This document shows, one piece after another, positions 1 to 26,422 of a DNA stretch of 28,165 nucleotides. The stretch is taken from IMG/VR virus record IMGVR_UViG_3300020473_001846, positions 1-28,165 of that record, one strand, 5' to 3'. The position numbers and the translations under genes are program-made. The notes under the pieces are model-generated. The model worked only from the letters and a program-made list of their open reading frames with translations, had not been told where the DNA came from and made no database searches. Source of the DNA: a virus. Position 1 is the first letter of the stretch, and every line of letters starts with the position of its first letter.

Positions 1-47
1 CCCATATATATTAAGACATTCTACCCACATCATGCACACACGATGTG

Positions 48-171
48 TGTGTTCGGTATTGGCAATCCATCATATGTATGTGAGGCGTAGGGTGTTCGGG
101 GTGTTCGGGGTGTTCAGTGCATCGGTTTTAGTTGTGCATTGGTTGTGCATCGGGGTGTTCGGGTTGTGCAT
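48..171. repeat. Short iterated repeats in the left non-coding region
   Basis: Two short words recur here. GGTGTTCGG (last copy GGTGTTCAG) is present three times in exact 9-bp register at 91-99, 100-108 and 109-117, again as GGTGTTC at 154-160, and a related TGTGTTCGG lies at 48-56. TTGTGCAT occurs at 132-139, 143-150 and 164-171. Just to the left is a perfect inverted repeat, CACACA-CGA-TGTGTG, at 35-49. The clustering is visible directly. The function is inference: iterated binding sites near a replication origin, a packaging site or an early control region are all possible. Short ORFs that cross this region are rich in Val, Phe, Cys and His because of the repeats and do not look like proteins. 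Confidence 0.6.
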
Positions 172-250
172 TTCGTCCAGTCATTGTGTTATTTCAGGCA
201 CTTACAAGCACACAATGTGTTGACCTGCGCGGCCTTGCTTGTCTATTTTT

Positions 251-448
251 CGGGGTGAGCGAAGCGAAGGGCCGCCGAAGGCAACTAGAGACTGGAGCGC
301 AGCGAAAGGAACGAAATTCTTCAGGTGAAGCGTAGCGAACACCGTAACCCGAAGGGTGAGGGGGGGCCGGAGCAAGGTAAGCGAACGAAGTGAGAGTCCC
401 GACCGAAGGGCGGGTACCTTAGCGGAGGGCTTCCCGATGCTCTGCTAA
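251..448. other. Dense array of small hairpins, many with GNA loops; possible structured RNA or DNA element
   Basis: The stretch contains consecutive potential hairpins. Mini-hairpins of the form GC-GNA-GC lie at 259-265 (loop GAA), 297-303 (GCA) and 330-336 (GTA), each followed by GAA. GCC-GAA-GGC is at 274-282 and CCC-GAA-GGG at 348-356. GGTG (324-327) pairs with CACC (340-343) around the 330-336 mini-hairpin. CTGGAG (292-297) can pair with CTTCAG (319-324) with one wobble pair. AAGGTA (374-379) pairs with TACCTT (415-420) and encloses a hairpin at 398-414 with a GAA loop. TTAGCGGAG (419-427) pairs with CTCTGCTAA (440-448). GNA triloops closed by C-G are known to be unusually stable in DNA. 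I do not recognise a named RNA family. It lies upstream of the packaging genes, so a noncoding RNA, a packaging or genome-end site, or a replication element are all open. Confidence 0.5.
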
Positions 449-491
449 CTCAGGTCTGAAATCGATCTGCAAAAAAACGAATTTTGGCTTT

Positions 492-529
492 GGGACTCCT
501 AAAAAATTTTGGGACTCCTAGAAAATTTT
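492..529. repeat. Tandem duplication of a 19-bp A/T-rich unit
   Basis: Two copies of a 19-bp unit (GGGACTCCTA, one variable base, then AAAATTTT) sit head to tail at 492-510 and 511-529 and differ only at the eleventh base (A versus G). The AAAATTTT core is self-complementary and may be bent. The duplication lies just before the most plausible start of the small membrane protein gene. The reading frame stays open through it because 38 bp plus flanks happens to avoid stops, so the repeat makes the true start of that gene uncertain. Confidence 0.75.
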
Positions 530-549
530 TTGGTGTGTATACTGCGGGT

Positions 550-876
550 GTGACGGATGAACTCATACGGCAGTTGATTGACTTTGGTGGTCTTGGTGGT
601 TTCGCCGGATTCCTTGTTTGGCAGTTTCTTCAGATGCAGAAGCGATTAGACAACCTGGTTGAAAAGTTTCAAGAGCAGGTTAGAGAAATCTCAGAAGACC
701 ATGACACGCGTGTAGAGCGGATGCGTGCCAGGTATGATGTTGTTATTGCAGACATCAGGGCGGACTGCAGCACAACCATCAACAAGCTGCAGGATGAGGT
801 AAAGCAGGCACAAAGGGATCTGCTCGCTCGGGAACGAGAATCTTTGTATAGCTTAAGGACAAGTGACGATGAGTGA
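550..876 (+). CDS. Small membrane protein with coiled coil, holin-like (BhlA/UviB type?)
   Basis: About 108 residues if it starts at the GTG at 550; the frame is open further upstream to a TTG at 484, but that part is encoded by a tandem repeat and reads as low-complexity sequence, so I prefer the internal start. No start in this frame has a clear ribosome binding site. The protein has a short N-terminal amphipathic stretch, one membrane segment at about residues 11-29 (Gly-rich, then FLVWQFLQM), and then a long charged helix with heptad character to the C-terminus. This topology, membrane anchor followed by a Lys/Arg/Glu coiled coil, is that of BhlA/UviB-type holin-like proteins and also of Rz-type inner-membrane spanins. 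It therefore may act at the inner membrane in lysis. No endolysin gene is seen beside it, so the role is inferred from shape alone. Confidence 0.5.
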   Translation: MTDELIRQLIDFGGLGGFAGFLVWQFLQMQKRLDNLVEKFQEQVREISEDHDTRVERMRARYDVVIADIRADCSTTINKLQDEVKQAQRDLLARERESLYSLRTSDDE

Positions 877-946
877 TTTATTTATACTGGTTGTCATTGT
901 GTGGCTATCGTTGTTTGCCGCATCACACTTTTGCAGCTCTGACTAG
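869..946 (+). CDS. Possible 25-residue single-helix membrane micro-protein
   Basis: An ATG at 869 overlaps the end of the upstream gene (the ATG sits a few bases before that gene's TGA at 874-876) and opens a 25-residue frame that ends with TAG at 944-946. The product is almost all membrane helix (LFILVVIVWLSLFAAS, about residues 4-19) with a Cys near the end. The overlapping start suggests translational coupling to the holin-like gene. There is no good lipobox, and only a few residues follow the Cys, so it is not a convincing outer-membrane spanin (Rz1). It could be a small holin, an antiholin partner or a chance ORF. Its end overlaps the 3' end of the convergent minus-strand gene by 4 bp. 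Confidence 0.35.
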   Translation: MSDLFILVVIVWLSLFAASHFCSSD

Positions 947-1353
947 CTAGCCTGGGCTTGCCCGCCGCCCTGTTCCATACGAAACAATGTCATCCGAACT
1001 GACGGCATGCTCCTGGCGTTGACCGGTTGCATTCGTTGAAAGTTGAACCGTTGCCCCAGGATTGCGTCTCTTACCATGGTGGACATTGATGCCCCCAGAT
1101 ACACGCCCACCTTGTTCAGCTCATCATATGTTCTTTTCGGCAGTTGGATTGTTTTGCCTTTTGTCGAGCCAACGATAGCTTTGATGTCGGTGCTTGGTGC
1201 AGTGACTCCATAGTTTGCCAGTGAGCCAATAAACGACTCGACACATATGCTTGCAAGTGCACTCACGGTGATGTGTGTTTTCTTTGCCGTTCGCGACAGA
1301 AGCTCAAAACAGGAATCATCGATAGGAATTGTTGTTTTACTTTTGTTTGCCAT
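943..1353 (-). CDS. Probable DNA-binding regulator with two ribbon-helix-helix-like segments
   Basis: A 136-residue protein and the only convincing minus-strand gene in the window. Residues about 6-45 and 66-104 each read as a short beta-strand segment (KTTIPIDD; KTIQLPKR) followed by two helices (ELLSRTAKK then SALASICVESFIG; YDELNKVGV then MSTMVRDAILG), the pattern of Arc/MetJ/CopG ribbon-helix-helix (RHH) repressors. Two such units in one chain would make a pseudo-dimer. The C-terminal 30 residues are Gln/Gly/Arg-rich. The start codon is separated by only 17 bp from the GTG of the divergent plus-strand gene, so any promoter or operator must lie inside coding sequence, and the protein is well placed to control that gene or itself. 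No Shine-Dalgarno sequence is visible. The assignment rests on secondary-structure pattern, not on a recognised family member. Confidence 0.6.
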   Translation of the reverse strand: MANKSKTTIPIDDSCFELLSRTAKKTHITVSALASICVESFIGSLANYGVTAPSTDIKAIVGSTKGKTIQLPKRTYDELNKVGVYLGASMSTMVRDAILGQRFNFQRMQPVNARSMPSVRMTLFRMEQGGGQAQAS

Positions 1354-1370: not shown

Positions 1371-1841
1371 GTGAGTGAATCTACGTCAACAACTACATCT
1401 TTACTCCAGTTAGTTGAAAAATCAGATGTTGCTGATTACTGGCTAAAGGCTGCTGTGAGCACCGAGTGTCTTGTTGCCCGTGCATTTGATGAGAGTGCAG
1501 GCGACCTGGCCGAACTTCACCGTAACCTTCGTGCAGTTCAAACCTATGTCAGCGTTCGCAAGTCGATTGGTGAGATGGTGGAGAAGTCGAGTACATTTTC
1601 CACAGATTCTAGCTGGGACCCATTTGCGCCTGATGTGCTTGACAAGCAACTGGATGTTTCTGCTGCCAGGGCAGAGTTTGATGCATCAGCTTCTACAGAC
1701 GCAGCGGTTGAGTTATACAAAGCGGGCTTGAGCTACAACGACATTATTGATAAGACCGGTCTTTCGAGGCGACAGGTTGAAAAGGCAGTGAAGAAGTCGG
1801 GTATTCGTCGTAAGCGTAAGACTCTTGAAATTGTGGGCTAG
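1371..1841 (+). CDS. Candidate terminase small subunit (helix-turn-helix protein)
   Basis: About 156 residues from the GTG at 1371. An upstream in-frame TTG at 1329 would overlap the divergent gene and adds an unlikely Cys/Phe-rich leader, so it is rejected. The N-terminal two thirds are helical and acidic. Residues about 111-145 form a clear helix-turn-helix (AAVELYKAGLSYNDII, then TGLSRRQVEKAVKK), followed by a basic tail RRKRK. Small terminase subunits bind the packaging site through such a motif and recruit the large subunit, and this gene is the nearest plus-strand gene before terL, which is the usual order. The odd point is that the DNA-binding motif is at the C-terminus; in well-studied small terminases it is N-terminal. 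A transcription regulator is the main alternative. No ribosome binding site is evident. Confidence 0.55.
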   Translation: MSESTSTTTSLLQLVEKSDVADYWLKAAVSTECLVARAFDESAGDLAELHRNLRAVQTYVSVRKSIGEMVEKSSTFSTDSSWDPFAPDVLDKQLDVSAARAEFDASASTDAAVELYKAGLSYNDIIDKTGLSRRQVEKAVKKSGIRRKRKTLEIVG

Positions 1842-1966: not shown

Positions 1967-3739
1967 ATGAGTAAAGTAAAAGAATTCTGGGAACGTTGTC
2001 GTACAGACAGGCGGTTTTACTTCCAGAACTGTTTGAAGATCCGAACCATGGTGGACGGCAAGTATAAGCTGACGCCGTTCCTTCTAAACGATGAGCAGGA
2101 GCAGATCCTCAATGCCATCGAAGAACAAGAGCAAGCACATGCGCCAGTTCGGTTGATTATCCTGAAATCCAGAAAGGTCGGCTGTTCGACTCTCATTGAA
2201 GCTCTGGGTCAACATTACTGCCAGTTCAGTAAGCACGCGAATGCCAAATGCATCGCTCACCTCAAAGATAGCACCAAGGAAATTTTTGGTATTGCAAAAC
2301 GTTACCAACAAAACCTTCCAGACTTCTTTGATGAGATTGCCCCGGCGCGGGTCATTGGCCATTCAATCCAGTGGACACATGGCTCCAGGTTTGCCATCCA
2401 GACACAGGGTGCCACTGATGCTGCGCGTGGCTCTACACCTGACTTTCTTCATCTGTCTGAGCTGGCGCTATGGTGGAAGAACCGCCGTGCAACATCTGAT
2501 GAAGATGTGCTTCAGTCTCAGTTGGGTTCTTTAGAAGATAAGTTTGGAACCACCTGCATTATTGAATCTACAGCTCACGGTGCGGCAGGCGCGTTTTACA
2601 ATCGGTTTTGGCAAGCCTGGAAGAACGAGCCTGGTAACATATTCAAGGCTTTGTTTTTCGGGTGGCAGGAGCACGTTCATTACCGTCTGCCTGCGGAGCA
2701 CGGGGATAAGGCGCTTTATGAGCGCCTGGTCCGTGCCCATCGTTCAGACGATAAGACATTGTTCTACGAGTTAGCCTCCCAGCAAGGCTGGGATGTGTTC
2801 TGGGCAGATAGAATGATTGAGTTCAACCTCGACCCTTGCCAAGTTCGCTGGGCGCTTCAGACGCTGCGAACGAAATTCGGTGGCGATTTGGTGAGGTTTG
2901 ACACAGAATACCCACTCTCACCTCAGATTGCTTTTACGTCTAGCGCCAGAAGTCCTTTTGACCAGGTTGCTGTTGAGGAGATTTCTCGCGAGCTTTCCGA
3001 TAATCCTCGTCCCTGTACTAAGGGAGAGTCTATAAATGAGAACCTTGTTCTTAGTCCAGGGAAAGATCATTGGCACGTGTGGAAGCTGCCTGAGCCTAAC
3101 CATGAATACCTTGTGACTATTGACTCGGCACACGGAGTAGAGGATGGAGACTTCTCTTGTTTACAAGTATTGGACCGGACCACTCGAGAGCAGGTGGCCG
3201 AATATTACGCTCGCAAGCCACCCGATATCGCTGCACATCAGGCCGCTCTTGCAGGCAGAGCGTACAACGATGCCCTTATTGTTCCTGAAATCGACGGACC
3301 TGGCCTCGCGGTGGTCAAAGAGTTGCTCGATATGTTTGGGGGAAGTGGATACCCCAATATCTATGTACGCTCAACATCAGGTAACTGGACCCAGCGATTC
3401 GGTTTTAGAACTCAGGGAAAGGGGCAGCGTTCAGCAGCAATAGCTGCGTTAGCTAAGGCGATTAGGCTCAGGGGTTGGACCTTCAATTCATTACGTCTAA
3501 TGGGTGAGTGTAAAACCTTTATTGAAAACATGAGCGGTCGCGCAGAGGCTATGCCTGGTTCACACGATGATGCGGTAATGGCAATGGCTATCGGTTTGTA
3601 TCTTGACTATGAACTGGGAGATGCGGCAATATCGACTCCAGCAGTGAAAGCAAAAGAATTGCCGAGGGATGCGGTGGCTAATTTCTTAGACGTGAAGCCA
3701 GATGGCGACAGAGATCCACACCTGGGGACGATATGGTAG
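1967..3739 (+). CDS. terL: Terminase large subunit (packaging ATPase and nuclease)
   Basis: A 590-residue DNA-packaging motor that docks on the portal, pumps DNA into the prohead by ATP hydrolysis and cuts the concatemer. The N-terminal ATPase shows a Walker A-like loop at residues 67-75 (KSRKVGCST), a Walker B strand with catalytic Glu at 159-165 (DFLHLSE) and a coupling motif near 200-205 (ESTAHG). The C-terminal RNase H-like nuclease shows the expected acidic residues: Asp386 in YLVTIDSAHG, Glu441 in VPEIDG, and Asp534/Asp535 in GSHDDAVMAM. Length is normal for the family. The start is not supported by a Shine-Dalgarno sequence, since a stem-loop and T-run end right at the ATG. The gene ends inside the next gene with a 7-base overlap. 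Confidence 0.96.
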   Translation: MSKVKEFWERCRTDRRFYFQNCLKIRTMVDGKYKLTPFLLNDEQEQILNAIEEQEQAHAPVRLIILKSRKVGCSTLIEALGQHYCQFSKHANAKCIAHLKDSTKEIFGIAKRYQQNLPDFFDEIAPARVIGHSIQWTHGSRFAIQTQGATDAARGSTPDFLHLSELALWWKNRRATSDEDVLQSQLGSLEDKFGTTCIIESTAHGAAGAFYNRFWQAWKNEPGNIFKALFFGWQEHVHYRLPAEHGDKALYERLVRAHRSDDKTLFYELASQQGWDVFWADRMIEFNLDPCQVRWALQTLRTKFGGDLVRFDTEYPLSPQIAFTSSARSPFDQVAVEEISRELSDNPRPCTKGESINENLVLSPGKDHWHVWKLPEPNHEYLVTIDSAHGVEDGDFSCLQVLDRTTREQVAEYYARKPPDIAAHQAALAGRAYNDALIVPEIDGPGLAVVKELLDMFGGSGYPNIYVRSTSGNWTQRFGFRTQGKGQRSAAIAALAKAIRLRGWTFNSLRLMGECKTFIENMSGRAEAMPGSHDDAVMAMAIGLYLDYELGDAAISTPAVKAKELPRDAVANFLDVKPDGDRDPHLGTIW

Positions 3740-16307: not shown

Positions 16308-18656
16308 ATGGCAGGCGCAGTACCAGATATTACCCCATATTTTGCTCAAACTTACGCCCAAGGCATGGAGAATGCCCGACTTCAGATAAAGGCTGACCTA
16401 CAGAAAGAGTTGGCACAGAGTGAAGCGGCAAACGCCATGGCGCGGACAATTGTTGGCGGCTTGATTAACGTTGGTGGAAACATTGGCTCGGCGGCAGTTG
16501 CACATGCTCTTTCAGAGCCACTGGAATCGGCAAAGGCTGGTGCCGATCTGTTTACACGGGCAACGGGGAAAGACGAGGGAGAGGAGTTTGAACGCGCTGT
16601 TAGGGAGGCGGCTTACTCAAAATTTAGAAGCGATGAAGAAAAAGCCGCCGGTTGGTTGCCGCCAGCGGACAAAAGAGTTGAGATTTATGAAGGACCTGGC
16701 AAGGCAGACGTAAAGTTCTTTATGGCCAAAACCAACAGAGAGGTTACGGCAAAAGAAGCGCAAAAGGCGATGGAGAAATGGGCAAAGGGTCCAAAGGACG
16801 AAGACGGGCAGATTAAAGCACCGCCGCCCATTGCATCTTACACCATTGGATTTGGAGACGAAACAGTCAAGGGTCACCCGGCAGTTAAACCCGTAATAGA
16901 AGCAGGGTTTGAGGGCATTCCATACGGAAGTTTGCCTAAAACGGTACGAAAAGAATGGGAAGACTTGTTTGGCGAGGGGTTTGATTACCCAACGAGAGAG
17001 CGATTTCGTGCAGATCCAGAAAGATATGGCGTCGAGTTTAAATCGGCAAAATGGAAAGGCTTGTACCGGGTAAGCGAGCAAAAACGCCTGGAAGTGAACG
17101 AAAAGATAAGAGACATGTCCATGCGAAGGGACATATCTCTGGCAAGAATAAGAGCGGCAGCAGACAAAAATGTTTTACAGGCAATGAGGGAGAGCGACCC
17201 AAAGGCAACAAATGCAAACCTTACCCCTAAAAACATCGCCCCTGACTCAAAAATATATAATGGCCTTACTCAGTACAGGAAATGGGGCCTTGTTGAAGAA
17301 AACGGCAGAAAATACCTGCAAGTCAATATTGCCAATGCGGCAGACACGGCGGCAAACGGACCTACCCTCGTGCGAGTTAGAACGCCGCTTTCACAATCGG
17401 ATCTTTATAACATCAAAAACGGAATATCGTTTGCCGTCAGTGGCTCAATAAGCGTAGAGGACGCCGTACGGTGGAAAAAGCAGCTAAGGATCGCAAGTAA
17501 CTACGCTAAAAGTAGGCGCATGATAGTTAACAACTATCTAACGCAACGAAAAGAAGATCAGAGCTTTCTGGGTAAACGAATATTTGCCGTGGGGTTGGGA
17601 CAGGGCAACAGGATCGATGTTAGGACTCTGCACATCTCCAATGCTTTGCAGACACCAGATGATAATAAAGTGCCCCTGTGGAAAAAGATAGGTACGGTGA
17701 TCACTTCGTCAAAACAGACTGTTCATAACATTAACGGCAGAAAGTTTTTAGGCCTCGGGGTTGATGCGAACGATTCAACTTATCTTGCTTTGATGAAAGA
17801 TTTGAAAACCTTGGCCGCAGGTGACCAGGAGAACCCAAGGCAACACCGCTTGGCGGCTACAGTATATGCAGGGAGAAAATATGCCAGGTACAGAACACTC
17901 CTGAGAGAAGTTACCGGAAGTGCTGTTGCCTCGTCTGGCGGCACATTAAACATCACGAGCAAGCGGGGTCCTACGCAATCAAAGTCTCCATCCAGCGGCG
18001 ATGCCAATATTTCAAAGCTTTCAACAAAGTGGAAAGCAGGTAGCGTAAAAAAACTGAACGCACACGTTACTACACAGTCCTATGGCCCAGCATCTAAAAT
18101 AATAGACTCACGAACTCTTCGTGGGCAGTCCAGTGTTAACGTTACGCACTCGTACCAATTTTCAAATGGACAAACCAGGGAATATCGTTTTCCCAACGTA
18201 AACACGCAGGGAATCAGAAGAACCTCTAAACTTGACGATGTGGTTGCAAAGCTAAAAAATTCATCAGGCTGGAAGCCGTTTCAAGATGATTTGATGATGG
18301 AGTCATTTGCTCGTGATATTGTTCCAAGAATAAAAACATTGGTGAGCGATGCACGTGCCATCAGCAAAAATTTCACCCTAAATGAGTTTCATCAAACCGT
18401 AATAAATAAGCTCGGTGGTTTTTACACCGACCTTACGAAAGAAAATCGAGCAACTATCGACGAGTGGATTAAAGGAATTTGGGAAGATCAAGGCTATAGT
18501 CCCACTTTCCCATCAGAGGGACCGCAAGGCTCGCAGTTTGTTCCAGAGGTAGAGCCTGATCCGTACAGTCGCGCAATTGAGGCTATTGCGGCGATGGACA
18601 TCAGTGACAAAGCGAAAGGCCGCAGAATGGACCACTTCTTGAGCAGGATGGCATAG
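16308..18656 (+). CDS. Large internal virion (ejection) protein candidate
   Basis: 782 residues, with AGGAG before the ATG. Near the N-terminus an Ala/Gln/Glu helix leads to a hydrophobic Gly-rich stretch at about residues 45-67 (ARTIVGGLINVGGNIGSAAVAHAL). The rest is Lys-rich and mainly helical with a beta-rich section at about 560-650 (NAHVTTQSYGP, SSVNVTHSYQFSNGQTREYRF). No enzyme motif is evident. It sits as the middle of three successive large genes between tail hub and fibre genes, where T7-like and P22-like phages encode proteins that leave the capsid ahead of the DNA and span the cell envelope. Its TAG overlaps the GTG start of the giant gene. Confidence 0.62.
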   Translation: MAGAVPDITPYFAQTYAQGMENARLQIKADLQKELAQSEAANAMARTIVGGLINVGGNIGSAAVAHALSEPLESAKAGADLFTRATGKDEGEEFERAVREAAYSKFRSDEEKAAGWLPPADKRVEIYEGPGKADVKFFMAKTNREVTAKEAQKAMEKWAKGPKDEDGQIKAPPPIASYTIGFGDETVKGHPAVKPVIEAGFEGIPYGSLPKTVRKEWEDLFGEGFDYPTRERFRADPERYGVEFKSAKWKGLYRVSEQKRLEVNEKIRDMSMRRDISLARIRAAADKNVLQAMRESDPKATNANLTPKNIAPDSKIYNGLTQYRKWGLVEENGRKYLQVNIANAADTAANGPTLVRVRTPLSQSDLYNIKNGISFAVSGSISVEDAVRWKKQLRIASNYAKSRRMIVNNYLTQRKEDQSFLGKRIFAVGLGQGNRIDVRTLHISNALQTPDDNKVPLWKKIGTVITSSKQTVHNINGRKFLGLGVDANDSTYLALMKDLKTLAAGDQENPRQHRLAATVYAGRKYARYRTLLREVTGSAVASSGGTLNITSKRGPTQSKSPSSGDANISKLSTKWKAGSVKKLNAHVTTQSYGPASKIIDSRTLRGQSSVNVTHSYQFSNGQTREYRFPNVNTQGIRRTSKLDDVVAKLKNSSGWKPFQDDLMMESFARDIVPRIKTLVSDARAISKNFTLNEFHQTVINKLGGFYTDLTKENRATIDEWIKGIWEDQGYSPTFPSEGPQGSQFVPEVEPDPYSRAIEAIAAMDISDKAKGRRMDHFLSRMA

Positions 18657-21600
18657 TGGCAGACAAAGAAGTCAAAACGGAAGATGAGCTAAAGGCCTCA
18701 GTTACTGCGACTGCTGCCGCACCATTGCTTGTTGCTGGTGCTCCGTTTGCTGCTCTTGGAGCTGCCGGGTATGGCGCATATAAGCTGTTTAAGTCCGGTG
18801 CACAAAAGCTTACGAAAGAAGAAATTAATCAAATAAAAACACTATTTAAACAAAAACAGAAGGGCCAGCCCAGGAAGCAATATAGGACTCGGAAAGTAAA
18901 GGATGCTCCTGGAAAACCTCTCGACCCAAAGCATGGGACGGATATTTTTGTAGGGGGCACAACAAAGGCTCCTTTTTATAGCTATGAGGAAGGGTCGAAG
19001 ATCGATACACCGCCACTTCCTGCGGTGACTCGGGTTTACGACAAAGAGAGCGGTCGATGGATCGAGATCCCAACGGAGGCCGGATATGGGCAACCTGGGG
19101 AACAGGTTATCTATAAGGGCGTTCGCCAGCCAGAAACCCAAAAGGGTGGTCCGCTTAGTGTGTTTGTCGCTCACAAGCCTGGTGACGTGGACTTGCTTAC
19201 TTTTGACAAGGGTAACCGCCAGAACACCTCCAATCCGGCCCAAATGGTTGGAAATAATTACCTTGACCTTGCCAAAAACCTAAATCGCAAGTTCGACAGA
19301 ATTCCAAGCAAGATGAACTTCATGCAGTTTGTGAGCGAACGCCTTGCTGACTTTACACCTCTGGTTACCGGCCACTTCGACAAAGAGGGCGCGAGGCGGT
19401 TTATTGACAATCGGCAGGAGAGCAATTGGATTGAGGGGGTCTTTCCAACCAGAAAAAAACTGCGCCTGCGGAAAAAAAGGAAGATCGAAAAACCTGACAT
19501 ACCAAAAGACCTTGCGGTATCTCCTTATGGCCAGCCAAGAATAAATCTGAAGGAGCGTGTCGAGGAGAGGTGGCAAAGGGAACGGGATGAATATTCCGTG
19601 TCTAGGGGTGAAGAATTAGGGAGACCGGTAGTTTTGATATTTAAAACCGGTTTGCTTGACGCGGGGGATCGCGGCTCCCGACCTATGACCTTTGAGGAGA
19701 GACACCTTTATGGGCTTGAGGAGTTTGACGACGGGCGAAAGCAATCACCTTTTTGGGCAAAAAGGCATGAGCTTGTAGATGAGCTGAATAAAGAGAAAAA
19801 CGTTTTGATGGGCAGGCTTGAGGGCTATATAAAACAGCTACAAAATGGGCAGGCTGCGGCGTTAGATAAGATTGAGTCAGTTCAGCGGGAAATAGTTGCG
19901 CTTTCGGCAAAAGAAAAGTACCGGCTTATATTTTTTACGGAAGAAGAGGGAAGGCTCTCAGATGAGTTCAACAGCCTAGACCCCAGTAAGCTAAATGGGT
20001 GGTTAAAAAAGCACACGAAGTTTTTGGATCGCTCCATGCCATGGGGGACGGTGCCTCGTCAGGGGCAAAGTCTTGAGTGGTCAATGAAAAACGGGGAGTG
20101 GGACCGCATACGAATACCCGTCAACATGTTTACCCAGGAGCAATGGAAGGAAAAGGTTGACCGGGCAATAAAGGGTCGCCTCGATAACGTTAAAGTGCCA
20201 TGGAACCCAGCTGGGGATCGTCGAAAGCTCAAGATTGGTGAGGCAACTTCGAGGCTTATGTATGGACGCACCGACCGGCCTTTTTTACCTACGAGTGATT
20301 TTACGGAAAGTGAGGCAGCACGTGCACTTGCTACCGGCAACACTCTGCCCGCATCTGAACTTCGACCGTTATTTGACAAGTATCAACAGCGACTCAAGGA
20401 AGTTCTTACAGACGAAAATATAGTCAACCGCGCAAAGATGCTCTATTTGGCAGAGCGGGATTGGCGCAGCCGCGTAACTCATCACCCGATGGCAGTGGGT
20501 GAAAAGGAGTTGCCTCTCAAACCGCCGTCAGCGCATGTGACAAAAAAACAGTATGGCTCATATTTAGAGAAAGCGAAGCAGGCCTTAGCTTGGGATGTCT
20601 GGAAAGATTTTACTCGGCATGAGAAAGAATGGAAGCCTGCTGAAGATCTACGAAAAATTGGCATAGACCCATCGACATTGAAGTCGGCAAGTATGGTGCC
20701 TGATTTTTCTGAGCGAGCAACCACAGCGTGGAAATGGCTGGTGGGCACTATTGAACCAAAAAACACATGGTTTGATGTTCCGTGGACAGAGGGTAGATGG
20801 GGTGTCGGCAACCCATTTAAAGCTGATGACTCGGTTGTTCATGGCGCGGCAAATCTACTTGGGTCATTGTTCAAGGGCATATATCAGGGTGTTGTCGCTA
20901 CCCCGATGGGCTGGGATTCTGAAGGGAAAGCGGAGAGTGTAGATATACCTGTATGGGCATTAAGGCATGATGCTCTGGACAGCAGGGCAACCTCTGTTAT
21001 TAATTTGCTTCGCGGCGATGATCCAGAGTCGTCGTTTCGCGGCTTATTTGGACTGCGGTGGAAGGTTAGGAAGTCATGGGATCCTTCCGCAAACAATGGA
21101 AAAGGCGCATGGAAAGGTGGCTGGGTGGCTGCTGACTCGTGGACCGCAAGTGATTACCGAGACAAGGATGACAAAGAACTAGAGGTCATTTCAAAGTATG
21201 ACGATATGGATGCGGTCGAGGTTGCCGCACATGTCGCAGAGAATCTTCCGATAGAGCTAACCGCCTTGGCAATGTTTTTTCCGACCATTGCGGCGGGAAT
21301 GTGGGACATACTTGCAGAGCCATTTAGCGGCAGAAATGCAAACGAGTCAGCCGAAGTACTAAAGCAGAAAATGAACCATTTCTCGGTTGGCATGGTCGAG
21401 TCTCTAGCAAAGCATATGGGAGATCCAAAAGCTGGTCTTGTGGATGAAGGGGCCATTACCCAGTTTCTGTGGCTCCTGCCGTTTGGGCAACTTAGCGCGG
21501 GCATGATGCGTAGTTTACTGAGGACAAGGTTGGGGCAGTACGCACAGAACAAACTACTCACGCCAGAAACATATGGCTACAAGAAAGAAAGCATGCCTTA

Positions 21601-24600
21601 CAGCGAGTACGATATGCCTCACTCGCCAACGATACCTCGTCGCGATCTTGTCCTTGATAAGACATCAGGCAAGCTTGTGCCCTGGGAGAAAGCTGTTGAC
21701 GATCTTGTCGAGCAGGCAAAGAAAAAGGCAATCGATGAGACTGGTTCCCCGCTAACCCCCGCAGCAGAGTTGGAAGCAAGACAAGCTTACAGTTTAAAAA
21801 CAAAAACCCTATACGGCGAATGTGTGAGGATTTTATTCAAAAAGACACAGGCGCTAGATAAGACAAGAAAGTACCTAGAGAAGTTCAGGAAAATTATCCT
21901 CGAGGAGGCAGAGCTGGCCAACGCAGGCAAGCAAGGCAAGCTAACTCCAGAACAATTCCAAAGAACCGCAAGGAAGTATTGGGCAATGCAAAGTGCCCAG
22001 ACTAGGCTTGAAATAGCAACGGAGGTTGCGAAGCAGACTCTCAAGAGCCACGCAACAAATGTGCCGAACCCTTACCTGCCTCTACTACCAAGAACTGTGG
22101 GTGTTGTCTTAAATTACCTTCCAAGGATAACCCAGCAATTGACGGTTATGGGCATGCCAGGGGTTGGATATAACCCCCTTTCTGTCTTTGAGACCGTTGG
22201 TCTTTTTGTTGACTGGGCATTGGCCATGGAAGGAAGGGGGATGTTGGCCGCATACTTGAGCAAGCCAAGCGAGTTACTCCCTGCTGCATTTGCTCAAAAG
22301 CAAGCTGAACTAGCGTGGAGCGTGCGCCGATTTGACACTACCGTCAGGGCAACAGCCGAAGCGATACCGCGAGAACACCGTCAAAAGGTGGGCGACACAC
22401 TGGATGGTGGTGGCAAGGCGGGCACTGTAGGTAGGGATGATTTAGTGACGCCAGCAGCCCGCGAGGGTTCTGCCATGGAGGCCTTGGACAAGGTTCGCGA
22501 TAGTCAGGCGCGTCGAGTACTCAAAAACAATGAGAAGCTGGGTATAGATGAACTCTCAACGGGTTCTGAACCACACATGATGACAGCTAGGGTGTTTCGG
22601 GAGGAGTATTTGGATGTCCTTAGCAAGCCAAAACACCAGGGCACACCAGGCCATAAGCGGTATTCTGAGATACACATAGAGATAAAGAGCAGCCAAAAGA
22701 AAAGGCTTGAGGACCAATACGGAAACAGGGAGATGGCGATACACTTCCTGCACGTTAAAAAAGCAGTGTATGGGGGAAAGAAGGTTCCCTTGAGGGTTCT
22801 CCAGGAATACCCAGACCTGCTTAGGGCATATAAACGCAAGCACAACATGAAGCCTAACACTCCAATTCTTACCCCAGAGATGCTGACAAAGCGGAAAGGT
22901 AAGTTTGTTCCAGGCGATGGAAAAGAGGCTCGATCAAGACTGTACTCGATGTACGAGGAGAGGCTTCCTTTGGTTGTCTGGAATCCAACAAAGCAATTGG
23001 TTGTGGAGACTGGGGCTAATAAGGCCACAACGCTGGGCGCATGGGAAGCAAACCCAATCCTTAAAAACCAGTTGAAAGATCCAATGAAATGGAGTCAGGC
23101 TGAAGCTAATGCTGCATTTATGAATATGTGGGGGAGAGACCTGTCAATAGTGGCTTTAGAAGTAAGCCACGGCATGAAAAACATACGGTTCTGGAACCCC
23201 CTTAAAGACAACGGCCCAAGCAGGGCACCGGGCGGTTGGCAGCATGGGATGTTTGAAAACCAGGCTGCGCTCAACAAATTCTGGTGGCCGCAGCAATATA
23301 AGTCATGGGGCCGACTCACACACTTCTTGAACAGGGAGCTGCAAAAGCATTGGGGAAGGGAAACGCTTGGCCCAAGGTGGAGCGAGGTGATGAAGAACAT
23401 GGTCGATGACCTGGGTGGGCCAGGGGCAAAGCCTGCTCCTGGTGAGCTTGGCGCATCGACCAGTGCCTTGAAAATGAGTGAGATGAGGAAGCGAGGTTAC
23501 CCGCTTGAGGCACTAAAGAAAGTTGGCCTGGAGCAGAACCTAGTTAAGCGTGCAGTGACCGGTTTGGCAGGGGCAAACTTTGCCTACCAGTCCTTCAAAC
23601 TCTATAAGCACATGGCTGACGATGCGAGCATTGTTTTCAAAGGAGAAGGCCAGCCACCTTTAGTGAAGGGGTTTGTTAGTGAGTTTGTTGATGAAGTTGT
23701 TGTTGGGGTGAACCAGCGCGGCCCGTGGATTAAAATGAGTGAAGAGACAATGTTCAAGGGGTCAAACACGCCGCGCTACGGACCCTTGGCTGGTCGCTGG
23801 GTGCACGAAAGCGTGTACTGGCATCTGAAGTATGCGGAAGAACTTGCTTACGTTGCCCAGCACAATCGGTGGTCCCAGCACGTGTCCACTTGGAAGGCGC
23901 TTCATACAGTATGGAATATGCCCACATTAATGCGGAATATGTATACGAATGTGCTGCTGTACGCGCCCATGAACGACATGATGATGATGGGCAAAAACAT
24001 GAACTATTACAGACGTGCATTTAGGGAGATGAAGGAGGGCGGTGACCTTTATAAGCTAGCCTACGAGTACGGCGCGTTTGACGGCACGTTTGCGCGGACA
24101 GAGCTTTCAACGCAGGCAACGACTGCGGTTCTCAAGGGTTTTGTAGGGAGAAAGAAAATTACCGGAGTTGAGCTTCAAGAGCTTGCCCGTAAACTGGCAA
24201 AGCAAGACTTTGATGGCCTTAGCGATAAGGCAAAGTTTTTTCTACAAGAAACCCCTGGGTCCCTCTACAGCGCAATGGATGACTACTTCCGGTTCTCCCA
24301 CTGGCTGAAACTCACGGGACTCGATGATACAGTTCGTTTTTTTAGAAAAAAGGGCATGGATGAAGGTGCGGCTATTCGCAAGGCGATAGAAGGAGCAGAT
24401 AAAAGCCTTTTACAGGAAATGGCAAATAAGGTCAGAAAAGATTGGATTGACTACGAAAACGCACCTTACTTTGTAAACATTCTTAGAACGCCAACAGAGA
24501 TGGGCCTCGGTATCAAAAACATGCTTTTTGCACTGGCAGGTAAGCCATTTTTCTCGTTCTCTGCGCTAAACATGCATAAGTCCGGTCCAATCCGGCGATG

Positions 24601-26422
24601 GATGACGCAGAACCCCATCAAGTATCAGATTTACAAAAACGTTTGGGATACGCTTAGTGCATATGAGTATGCAGATGCGTTGGGTTCTGATCCAGACACT
24701 GCCAAGAGATGGATGAAAGCCCAGCGAAATCGAATGCCATTCTGGCGCAGGTTGCGCTATATACCAATGACTTCTACTGGGATTATTGGTAGGGCGATTG
24801 AGCACCTCTCGGGCGTGCCAAACGTAAAAGGTGAACGAGTTGTCCGCGATAACGTAATAGAAGTACCCAGTGATCAATGGGGTGATTTGCCCAAGGATTC
24901 GTTTGTATCGCAACTGAATATCGATGGGATACCTACGGGGATTAAAAAGCCAGTGAAAACGCTTGATGAGGCTATTGATGTAGCGTCAACGTTGATTAAG
25001 AGAAGTTCCCATACAGCACAAAACAGAGCGGCAGTAGCTGCAATTATTCAAAGGGATTTAGACATTCCCATATCTTGGGACAGCGACATTAACATGTGGG
25101 TTGCTAGGCAAAAAGTGACCAATGAAACAATCATACCTATGGTGACTAGATGGTTTAATGCCGGGTATTATACGCCGTTTGACTGGCTTGTGCCACAGCT
25201 TGAGGCGTACAATAAACAGAATCCAATTGGCTCATTTATAGCTCAACTAGTTGCCAATCAAAACCCACTCACCAGTCTAGCTATCGCATGGTCAACTGAA
25301 AAAGATCCGCATTTCAAAAGTGACTTGTACCGCGATGATCCAAATGCTTCTTCGTGGCAGAATTATGGAACACGGATGATGACATTTTGGAAGTACGGAT
25401 GGGCCAATATGGTGCCGCCATGGTTAGGGGGAAGCTCATACGACAAGCTAAAGTCAATTGGCAACCAGGACGTTAGAGGCAGGGTTCGCGGCGCAATGGA
25501 GACATGGTTTGATGCGCTCTTGGGAATCAAATACGAGAGTAATATCGAGTTGCCTGACGATATATCACGGCAGTTGACCCTGTTTGACAAGGACATGGGA
25601 AAGGCCGAGATGACTGCCATGGACTTTACAAGAAAACAATTCGATGACACAAAAGTTTCTCCGCAGGCTGAAGGCGTTGTGTTGCCGCAGAAGCTAGATC
25701 TAAACCGCCTAATTGACTACGCAAACGGCGATGACGTTCACAGGCCGAAAGAAGGCGAGCCTATTACGCCACGCCTAGCGAAGGACATGATTGATTTCTA
25801 CATGAAAACAAAGGCAAGGTTGGGGCTGAAAGCACTAGAGCGGTTGATTGCTGCCGTTGGTACGGTGCCACCGCTTCCAAGGGAGTGGCAAGCGGAAGAG
25901 GGTCCGGTGTTGGAACGGGGTAAAACAGATAAGGAAATCAAGCCTCCAACTGTGGAGGTTCCGCTCGAAACCTGGGGGTGGACGGGAGACACCAGGAAAA
26001 ATAGGGAGTTACTAAGTATTGCTGCGCTCCAGATGATGATTACAGGGTTGCCGATGGGATTTTACAACAACATTCTCAATAGGGAGAGTAGCTTCAATCA
26101 GGAAGAATTTAATTCATACCTACAGAAAAGGGTGATGGGTGCCAATGATGGCAGAAAATTAACACGCAAAGAGTTGATCAAAATTTCAAACATGTACAAA
26201 GAAAAGACCAAAGGATATAAACTTGTATATGAAATGTTGTTTGGCGCATTAGACGAGCGGGGTACTGTTGAGCAAGATCCAAAGGGTATTATCTCAAATC
26301 TGAGAACTCTGAAGACTCGCTTGAAGGATTACATTGACGAGCAAAAGAAAGCACGGCAGCACGGGGAGCCAATTCCAGGCAAAGAAAAGCCGGGTTACTA
26401 CGAACACAGAGAGGTAAAGTAA
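18656..26422 (+). CDS. Giant 2588-residue protein, probable ejected internal virion protein with an LPD38-like region
   Basis: The longest gene in the window, starting with GTG in a TAGTG overlap. Residues 15-42 are an Ala/Gly hydrophobic segment. Long charged helical stretches alternate with further hydrophobic segments at about 863-883, 936-951 and 1140-1190. A region at about 1740-2010 shows, in order, TVWNMPTLMRNMYTN (from residue 1751), DDYFRFSHWLKL (from 1875) and KPFFSFSALN (from 1963). From memory this order matches the large polyvalent protein associated domain LPD38 of giant phage proteins; a profile search is needed to confirm it. I found no complete polymerase, protease or transglycosylase motif. 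Probable role: part of the DNA-ejection apparatus that crosses the envelope, possibly delivering effector domains. Confidence 0.75.
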   Translation: MADKEVKTEDELKASVTATAAAPLLVAGAPFAALGAAGYGAYKLFKSGAQKLTKEEINQIKTLFKQKQKGQPRKQYRTRKVKDAPGKPLDPKHGTDIFVGGTTKAPFYSYEEGSKIDTPPLPAVTRVYDKESGRWIEIPTEAGYGQPGEQVIYKGVRQPETQKGGPLSVFVAHKPGDVDLLTFDKGNRQNTSNPAQMVGNNYLDLAKNLNRKFDRIPSKMNFMQFVSERLADFTPLVTGHFDKEGARRFIDNRQESNWIEGVFPTRKKLRLRKKRKIEKPDIPKDLAVSPYGQPRINLKERVEERWQRERDEYSVSRGEELGRPVVLIFKTGLLDAGDRGSRPMTFEERHLYGLEEFDDGRKQSPFWAKRHELVDELNKEKNVLMGRLEGYIKQLQNGQAAALDKIESVQREIVALSAKEKYRLIFFTEEEGRLSDEFNSLDPSKLNGWLKKHTKFLDRSMPWGTVPRQGQSLEWSMKNGEWDRIRIPVNMFTQEQWKEKVDRAIKGRLDNVKVPWNPAGDRRKLKIGEATSRLMYGRTDRPFLPTSDFTESEAARALATGNTLPASELRPLFDKYQQRLKEVLTDENIVNRAKMLYLAERDWRSRVTHHPMAVGEKELPLKPPSAHVTKKQYGSYLEKAKQALAWDVWKDFTRHEKEWKPAEDLRKIGIDPSTLKSASMVPDFSERATTAWKWLVGTIEPKNTWFDVPWTEGRWGVGNPFKADDSVVHGAANLLGSLFKGIYQGVVATPMGWDSEGKAESVDIPVWALRHDALDSRATSVINLLRGDDPESSFRGLFGLRWKVRKSWDPSANNGKGAWKGGWVAADSWTASDYRDKDDKELEVISKYDDMDAVEVAAHVAENLPIELTALAMFFPTIAAGMWDILAEPFSGRNANESAEVLKQKMNHFSVGMVESLAKHMGDPKAGLVDEGAITQFLWLLPFGQLSAGMMRSLLRTRLGQYAQNKLLTPETYGYKKESMPYSEYDMPHSPTIPRRDLVLDKTSGKLVPWEKAVDDLVEQAKKKAIDETGSPLTPAAELEARQAYSLKTKTLYGECVRILFKKTQALDKTRKYLEKFRKIILEEAELANAGKQGKLTPEQFQRTARKYWAMQSAQTRLEIATEVAKQTLKSHATNVPNPYLPLLPRTVGVVLNYLPRITQQLTVMGMPGVGYNPLSVFETVGLFVDWALAMEGRGMLAAYLSKPSELLPAAFAQKQAELAWSVRRFDTTVRATAEAIPREHRQKVGDTLDGGGKAGTVGRDDLVTPAAREGSAMEALDKVRDSQARRVLKNNEKLGIDELSTGSEPHMMTARVFREEYLDVLSKPKHQGTPGHKRYSEIHIEIKSSQKKRLEDQYGNREMAIHFLHVKKAVYGGKKVPLRVLQEYPDLLRAYKRKHNMKPNTPILTPEMLTKRKGKFVPGDGKEARSRLYSMYEERLPLVVWNPTKQLVVETGANKATTLGAWEANPILKNQLKDPMKWSQAEANAAFMNMWGRDLSIVALEVSHGMKNIRFWNPLKDNGPSRAPGGWQHGMFENQAALNKFWWPQQYKSWGRLTHFLNRELQKHWGRETLGPRWSEVMKNMVDDLGGPGAKPAPGELGASTSALKMSEMRKRGYPLEALKKVGLEQNLVKRAVTGLAGANFAYQSFKLYKHMADDASIVFKGEGQPPLVKGFVSEFVDEVVVGVNQRGPWIKMSEETMFKGSNTPRYGPLAGRWVHESVYWHLKYAEELAYVAQHNRWSQHVSTWKALHTVWNMPTLMRNMYTNVLLYAPMNDMMMMGKNMNYYRRAFREMKEGGDLYKLAYEYGAFDGTFARTELSTQATTAVLKGFVGRKKITGVELQELARKLAKQDFDGLSDKAKFFLQETPGSLYSAMDDYFRFSHWLKLTGLDDTVRFFRKKGMDEGAAIRKAIEGADKSLLQEMANKVRKDWIDYENAPYFVNILRTPTEMGLGIKNMLFALAGKPFFSFSALNMHKSGPIRRWMTQNPIKYQIYKNVWDTLSAYEYADALGSDPDTAKRWMKAQRNRMPFWRRLRYIPMTSTGIIGRAIEHLSGVPNVKGERVVRDNVIEVPSDQWGDLPKDSFVSQLNIDGIPTGIKKPVKTLDEAIDVASTLIKRSSHTAQNRAAVAAIIQRDLDIPISWDSDINMWVARQKVTNETIIPMVTRWFNAGYYTPFDWLVPQLEAYNKQNPIGSFIAQLVANQNPLTSLAIAWSTEKDPHFKSDLYRDDPNASSWQNYGTRMMTFWKYGWANMVPPWLGGSSYDKLKSIGNQDVRGRVRGAMETWFDALLGIKYESNIELPDDISRQLTLFDKDMGKAEMTAMDFTRKQFDDTKVSPQAEGVVLPQKLDLNRLIDYANGDDVHRPKEGEPITPRLAKDMIDFYMKTKARLGLKALERLIAAVGTVPPLPREWQAEEGPVLERGKTDKEIKPPTVEVPLETWGWTGDTRKNRELLSIAALQMMITGLPMGFYNNILNRESSFNQEEFNSYLQKRVMGANDGRKLTRKELIKISNMYKEKTKGYKLVYEMLFGALDERGTVEQDPKGIISNLRTLKTRLKDYIDEQKKARQHGEPIPGKEKPGYYEHREVK

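Follow-up and report, generated by a model that had tools for sequence, protein, structure and literature searches.

What the dense run of very small hairpins at positions 251-448 of this viral DNA is, and whether it acts as DNA or as RNA, is the question raised by this locus. In DNA chemistry, the GNA mini-hairpin has the status of a textbook curiosity, and to our knowledge it has one well-worked natural role, in the promoters of phage N4. The window analyzed here was the whole 28,165-base viral record, which is a linear fragment.

A scan of all triloop hairpins found seven C-GNA-G hairpins of at least 2 pairs in 251-448, all on the plus strand and 0 on the minus strand, and the coordinates given in the first-pass annotation were correct. 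The stems of the seven hairpins were of five kinds (GC/GC three times, GCC/GGC, ACCC/GGGT, AC/GT, and CC/GG). Dinucleotide-preserving shuffles of 251-448 had a mean of 0.59 C-GNA-G loops, and 0 of 5000 reached seven. In the rest of the window, both strands included, there were no more than two C-GNA-G hairpins per 198-base segment outside the cluster. The sequence GC-GNA-GC followed by GAA, first noticed with the loop bases A, C, and T, occurred exactly three times in the window, all within 251-448, at 259 (GAA), 297 (GCA), and 330 (GTA). The hairpin cluster is real and far beyond chance. Its parts were as follows.

251..420, plus strand: array of seven C-GNA-G triloop DNA mini-hairpins with varied stems (seven against a shuffle mean of 0.59)
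257..268, plus strand: unit GA-GC(GAA)GC-GA with tandem G-A flanks, with its hairpin at 259-265 (motif and triloop scan; flank coupling in other loci)
274..282, plus strand: hairpin GCC(GAA)GGC (triloop scan)
295..306, plus strand: unit GA-GC(GCA)GC-GA, with its hairpin at 297-303 (motif and triloop scan)
324..343, plus strand: hairpin GGTG-AA-GC(GTA)GC-GAA-CACC, core at 330-336 (similar unit GTGTGAGCGTAGCGAACACC in L024/L037)
347..357, plus strand: hairpin ACCC(GAA)GGGT (triloop scan)
374..420, plus strand: basal stem AAGGTA (374-379)/TACCTT (415-420) around two GAA-loop hairpins (direct reading and triloop scan)

The nesting of hairpins within AAGGTA/TACCTT, also claimed earlier, was borne out. 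The two hairpins enclosed were CGAAC(GAA)GTGAG (loop hairpin 385-391, AC/GT) and CCCGACC(GAA)GGGCGGG (403-409, CC/GG); 374..420 is a possible three-way junction, and the DNA fold of 371-425 had a z of -1.5. In the 324..343 hairpin, the 3' arm contained GAACACC, which is the GGTGTTC repeat described below in reverse complement.

The array sits in a divergent control region, with GGTGTTC repeats on its left and a GGGTACCTTAG box on its right. The surrounding features were as follows.

91..160, plus strand: four iteron-like GGTGTTC repeats, at 91, 100, 109, and 154 (similarly placed cluster in the L004 genome, at L134 12537-12735)
412..422, plus strand: box GGGTACCTTAG (same or nearly the same before the Arc-like gene, terS, and terL in L003, L009, L010, L023, and L024; partly in L004)
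489..526, plus strand: TTTGGGACTCCTARAAAAT twice in tandem (L003 and L004 have GGGACTCC copies at the same place)
943..1353, minus strand: Arc-like DNA-binding protein, a conserved neighbor (PHROG 582, E 6e-4; homologues in most relatives)
1374..1841, plus strand: candidate small terminase gene terS, HTH_23-like (position and domain)
1967..3739, plus strand: terminase large subunit gene terL (PHROG 2, E 4e-17)

The portal and capsid genes lay downstream of terL. A 130-aa ORF at 484-876 (PHROG 10610, unknown function), located between the array and the Arc-like gene, was absent from L003 and L004. As in an iteron-type origin, short direct repeats lay beside the element; the L134 cluster carried the GGTGTTC heptamer in both orientations, and window positions 89-189 were 72% identical to L134 12654-12754 (E 7e-6). 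A 781-aa protein encoded at L134 1462-3807 had Toprim and DUF5906/VapE-like domains; it is probably a primase-helicase of the phage group and could act at the GGTGTTC repeats. The alignment of the box covered the window, L003, L004, the L024 contig, and L010. To the right of the box came a partly shared stretch and then the GGGACTCC repeats common to L003 and L004. Two unrelated contigs, L025 and L028, had GGGACTCCTAAAAAATTTT and then several GGGACCC copies in the gap after a gene.

A DNA search of annotated phages with window positions 1-1000 gave no match, and the relatives were collected through terL, whose identity to that of the window was 86% in L003 and 84% in L004. The L004 record was 41.4 kb, with ends overlapping by 98 bases, so that this genome closes as a circle. 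In the L004 genome, the region homologous to that of the array divides leftward genes (AAA_24 ATPase, DUF669, PD-(D/E)XK nuclease, and DNA methylase) from the rightward terS and terL. The cumulative GC skew of L004 had its minimum in this region, but the skew also tracks gene direction.

The slot between the repeats and the box held hairpins in L003 and L004 that were quite different from those of the window. Some of these hairpins were strong (L004: DNA z -5.2, 0 of 200 shuffles; L003: z -2.4), and they included C-GNA-G loops, namely GGGTAC(GTA)GTACCC and ACCATTGC(GAA)GCGATGGT in L004 and TCATC(GTA)GATGA in L003. Contig L024 had three C-GNA-G hairpins, one of them in a unit close to the third GC-GNA-GC hairpin of the window (L024/L037; 90% over 31 bases). 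Among the more distant relatives L005-L010, the corresponding region had no GNA cluster, and the GNA array is therefore dispensable across the family. The slot is often hairpin-rich, and neither the individual hairpins nor the GNA loop is fixed.

The preferred reading, with a probability of roughly 0.4, is that 251-448 is a cluster of d(GCGNAGC)-type DNA mini-hairpins with fast turnover, formed when the DNA is supercoiled or single-stranded. All seven hairpins had the GNA loop and C-G closure on at least 2 bp that define the d(GCGNAGC) class. As DNA, GCGAAGC has a melting temperature near 78 °C and is nuclease-resistant, and its loop contains a sheared G-A pair (PMC4686876). In N4, the promoter hairpins, whose three-base loop contains a sheared G-A pair, are extruded when supercoiling is at its physiological level, and the loop of the template strand is the resistant one (PMC4496689). 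Each hairpin of the window would consist of a stem of 2-4 bp, C-G closure, and a GNA loop with a sheared G-A pair, often with a tandem G-A extension (GA-NC-GNA-GN'-GA); from known G-A pairing, the tandem sheared steps would be expected to lengthen the hairpin. The plus strand would form a stable hairpin and the minus strand (C-TNC-G) would not. Since the TNC loop should not have GNA-type stability, the array is presumed to be strand-specific. The hairpins would form under negative supercoiling or in single strands, as in early replication or terminase action, and their position suggests that the folded hairpins would serve as structured sites where replication or packaging proteins land or process the DNA. 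With selection on structure and not on sequence, any single hairpin could turn over quickly. Two observations count against this reading: the total folding energy of the array did not exceed that of shuffles, and GNA clusters were missing from the region in L005-L010. On the basis of loop chemistry, N4 extrusion, and strand specificity, the plus strand as supercoiled or single-stranded DNA is the best reading. Of the possibilities named in the first-pass annotation, a structured DNA that extrudes when single-stranded was likewise the one best supported, by analogy with the loop chemistry of the two systems above (PMC4686876, PMC4496689).

The same unit was searched for elsewhere. The pattern GTGAGCGNAGCGAACAC was found in 103 stretches of viral contigs, RB43-like phages included. 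Two-unit arrays, defined as two GAGCGNAGCGA units 20-50 bases apart (core unit GAGC-GNA-GCGA), numbered at least 120 in viral contigs and at least 120 in bacterial and archaeal genomes. These raw counts were dropped as evidence, since composition-matched controls, carrying either AG flanks or an ANG loop, also gave at least 120 matches each. The counts alone prove nothing, and it is the non-coding, phase-free placement that separates the sets. Among the matches listed, 64% of the viral two-unit arrays were intergenic and their phases were even (36, 40, 37), and 51% of those in cellular genomes were intergenic. By comparison, among the matches listed for the controls, 6% were intergenic and 101 of 102 (99%) in codon phase for AG flanks, and 12% were intergenic and 77 of 86 (90%) in codon phase for the ANG loop; both controls are repeats within coding sequence.

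The flanks of the unit were also non-random. GA...GA was the commonest flank pair round NC-GNA-GN' in all three sets analyzed (9, 50, and 91 observed vs 3.3, 11.6, and 24.6 expected from the margins), a coupling of about threefold to fourfold. The first set was not chosen by motif; the two large sets were motif-chosen loci with the bait masked, and in both of them GA...GA outnumbered every listed Watson-Crick flank pair. The orientation of the GNA strand relative to flanking genes was considered as a further feature (44 opposite and 23 same in the viral two-unit set, among the matches listed) and was dropped because the bias was not repeated in two other sets (40 vs 54 in the cellular set, among the matches listed, and 18 vs 27 in the single-unit viral set). 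The biggest arrays contained many kinds of stem. The richest varied array seen was at L142 220-690, where thirteen GNA hairpins with ten kinds of stem fitted into less than 200 bases directly before terL. In RB43 (L138 1561-1880), four GNA mini-hairpins, two per strand, lay between gene 3 and a hypothetical gene.

The array of the window is a member of a widespread non-coding class of a known DNA mini-hairpin type, for which no name was found: the literature searched for GAGCGAAGCGA or for a class already named in genomes yielded unrelated papers only. A wider proposal is tentative and more doubtful than secure. It holds that arrays of sheared-G-A mini-hairpins (GA-NC-GNA-GN'-GA with free stems) may be undescribed, widespread functional DNA-structure elements in the non-coding DNA of phages and bacteria, under selection for the fold of one strand and not for sequence, and that the array of the window may be one of them, in a replication/packaging control region. 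Such arrays would escape sequence- and RNA-family searches because only the loop and the G-A flanks are kept. If natural arrays are common and selected, DNA secondary structure would be a far commoner signal in phage and bacterial genomes than is annotated, and the definition of the unit makes selection of GNA arrays testable by probing and population data.

The main rival explanation is that the array is a mutational by-product, which is a serious possibility that still has the odds against it. GC-GNA-GC would be the smallest stable fold-back of a 3' end, and polymerase fold-back or template switching would make and perfect hairpins in tolerant non-coding DNA, leaving a functionless array. 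Shared loops with differing stems fit this explanation, as do the rapid turnover of hairpins between relatives at about 84-90% protein identity and the occurrence of comparable arrays in many viral and bacterial contigs that are unrelated. In the fetched loci with the bait masked, C-GNA-G made up 39 of 956 perfect triloop hairpins of at least 6 pairs (4.1%), vs 1.6% if loops and closing pairs were equal. However, strand copying cannot yield the mismatched G-A/G-A flanks, which were the most strongly coupled feature; moreover, all seven hairpins lay in one slot, and this slot keeps hairpins in the nearest relatives. The earlier suggestion of selection for loop type, and not simple duplication, stood as a pattern, with five stems, one loop class, and coupled G-A flanks elsewhere, but mutational preference could give part of it.

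An unlikely alternative is that the hairpins are part of a pac/cos element recognized or nicked by the small terminase or TerL, as the mention of a packaging or nicking site had implied. The array is indeed upstream of the terminase genes, 0.9 kb from the terS candidate and 1.5 kb from terL, in the position beside terS/terL that such a site would have, but two ORFs intervene. Next to it is the box that relatives share upstream of terS/terL, and in unrelated contigs some of the largest arrays abutted terS (L054, L113, and, by reading of its sequence, L077) or terL (L141, L142, L162, and L212). Terminase families led the nearest neighbors of two-unit arrays among the matches listed, while the control ORFs included one terminase family (2 ORFs) among the listed families. 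On the other hand, in the 20 whole records that matched Terminase_6N, about 4 of 20 arrays were within 2.5 kb of the terminase match, which is about the level of random placement, many arrays neighbored helicases, homing endonucleases, or unknown genes, and the L004 genome was circular in assembly. A general rule of terminase adjacency, strong at first sight, was rejected because it found no support in the whole-record distances. A regular-expression search for small subunits of the Terminase_2 type gave no match in the array loci, near or far from the arrays, and was uninformative. The link of the array to the terminase is only suggestive.

It is very unlikely that a structured non-coding RNA or leader is transcribed through 251-448. 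Tandem G-A steps occur in RNA too, and direct reading shows that, on the minus strand, those GAA hairpins whose stem ends in CC/GG would give three C(UUCG)G tetraloops. Against this, the folding energy of the array was no better than that of shuffles (RNA z +1.2, DNA z +1.8, minus-strand RNA z +0.7), and the GNA loops are of the DNA-favored kind. The non-random part is therefore the loop class and the G-A flanks and not the overall pairing, and in this sense the array was rightly called structured for loop type and flanks but not for total pairing; standard energy models may be blind to the GNA loop type and the G-A flanks. Covariance models and an alignment of related phages had been proposed as checks on a novel non-coding RNA. 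No Rfam family reached the gathering threshold in the window, the sole sub-threshold match at E up to 10 was at 577-670, outside the array, and 14 array-bearing loci gave no Rfam match. The tRNA search found none, promoter and terminator scans showed no excess, and there was no intrinsic terminator (a G+C-rich stem followed by a T run) within 251-448. In the comparison for compensatory changes, the hairpins of L003, L004, and L024 could not be aligned to those of the window; with unrelated hairpins in the same slot of close relatives, there appears to be no conserved RNA to covary, and the claim of a novel non-coding RNA was not supported.

A highly improbable explanation is that the hairpins are N4-like promoters for an RNA polymerase that the virion carries and injects along with the DNA. 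The loop class is that of the N4 promoter hairpin (PMC4496689), a giant 2588-aa protein belongs to the virion gene set, and in the arrangement of L004 the leftward early genes have the array upstream of them. Against this, the stems are 2-4 bp and not 5-7 bp, similar arrays occur in bacteria, and the giant protein had no family (Pfam, PHROGs) or PDB match; a regular expression for motif A of T7-type RNA polymerases found nothing in it either. This protein, encoded at 18656-26422 in the virion gene block, was also unmatched among annotated phages, which were searched with its last 1588 aa.

Compared with known systems, the reading as DNA mini-hairpins has several partial counterparts. The REP/BIME and ERIC elements of bacteria are also short hairpins in non-coding DNA; they form families by sequence (PMC2267715), whereas in the class of the window array the loop and flank type are common and the stems differ. 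The intergenic hairpins of the T4-like phage RB43 are alike in having GTGAGCGAAGCGAACAC and CGAACGAAGTGAG between genes, and the cassette region matches three places per genome; these are dispersed repeats, whereas the window has an array in a terminase-side control region. The N4 vRNAP promoter hairpins (PMC4496689) are likewise small, lie in a phage control region, and have three-base loops with a sheared G-A pair, but they have stems of 5-7 bp, conserved bases, and a cognate giant RNA polymerase, compared with the 2-4 bp stems of the window, where no such polymerase was found. The d(GCGNAGC) mini-hairpins of Hirao, Yoshizawa and co-workers (PMC4686876) have the identical core, a C-G-closed GNA loop on at least two G-C pairs, with exact GC-GNA-GC three times in the window. 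Those hairpins are known from short synthetic DNA, whereas the hairpins of the window form a natural, strand-biased array with tandem G-A flanks.
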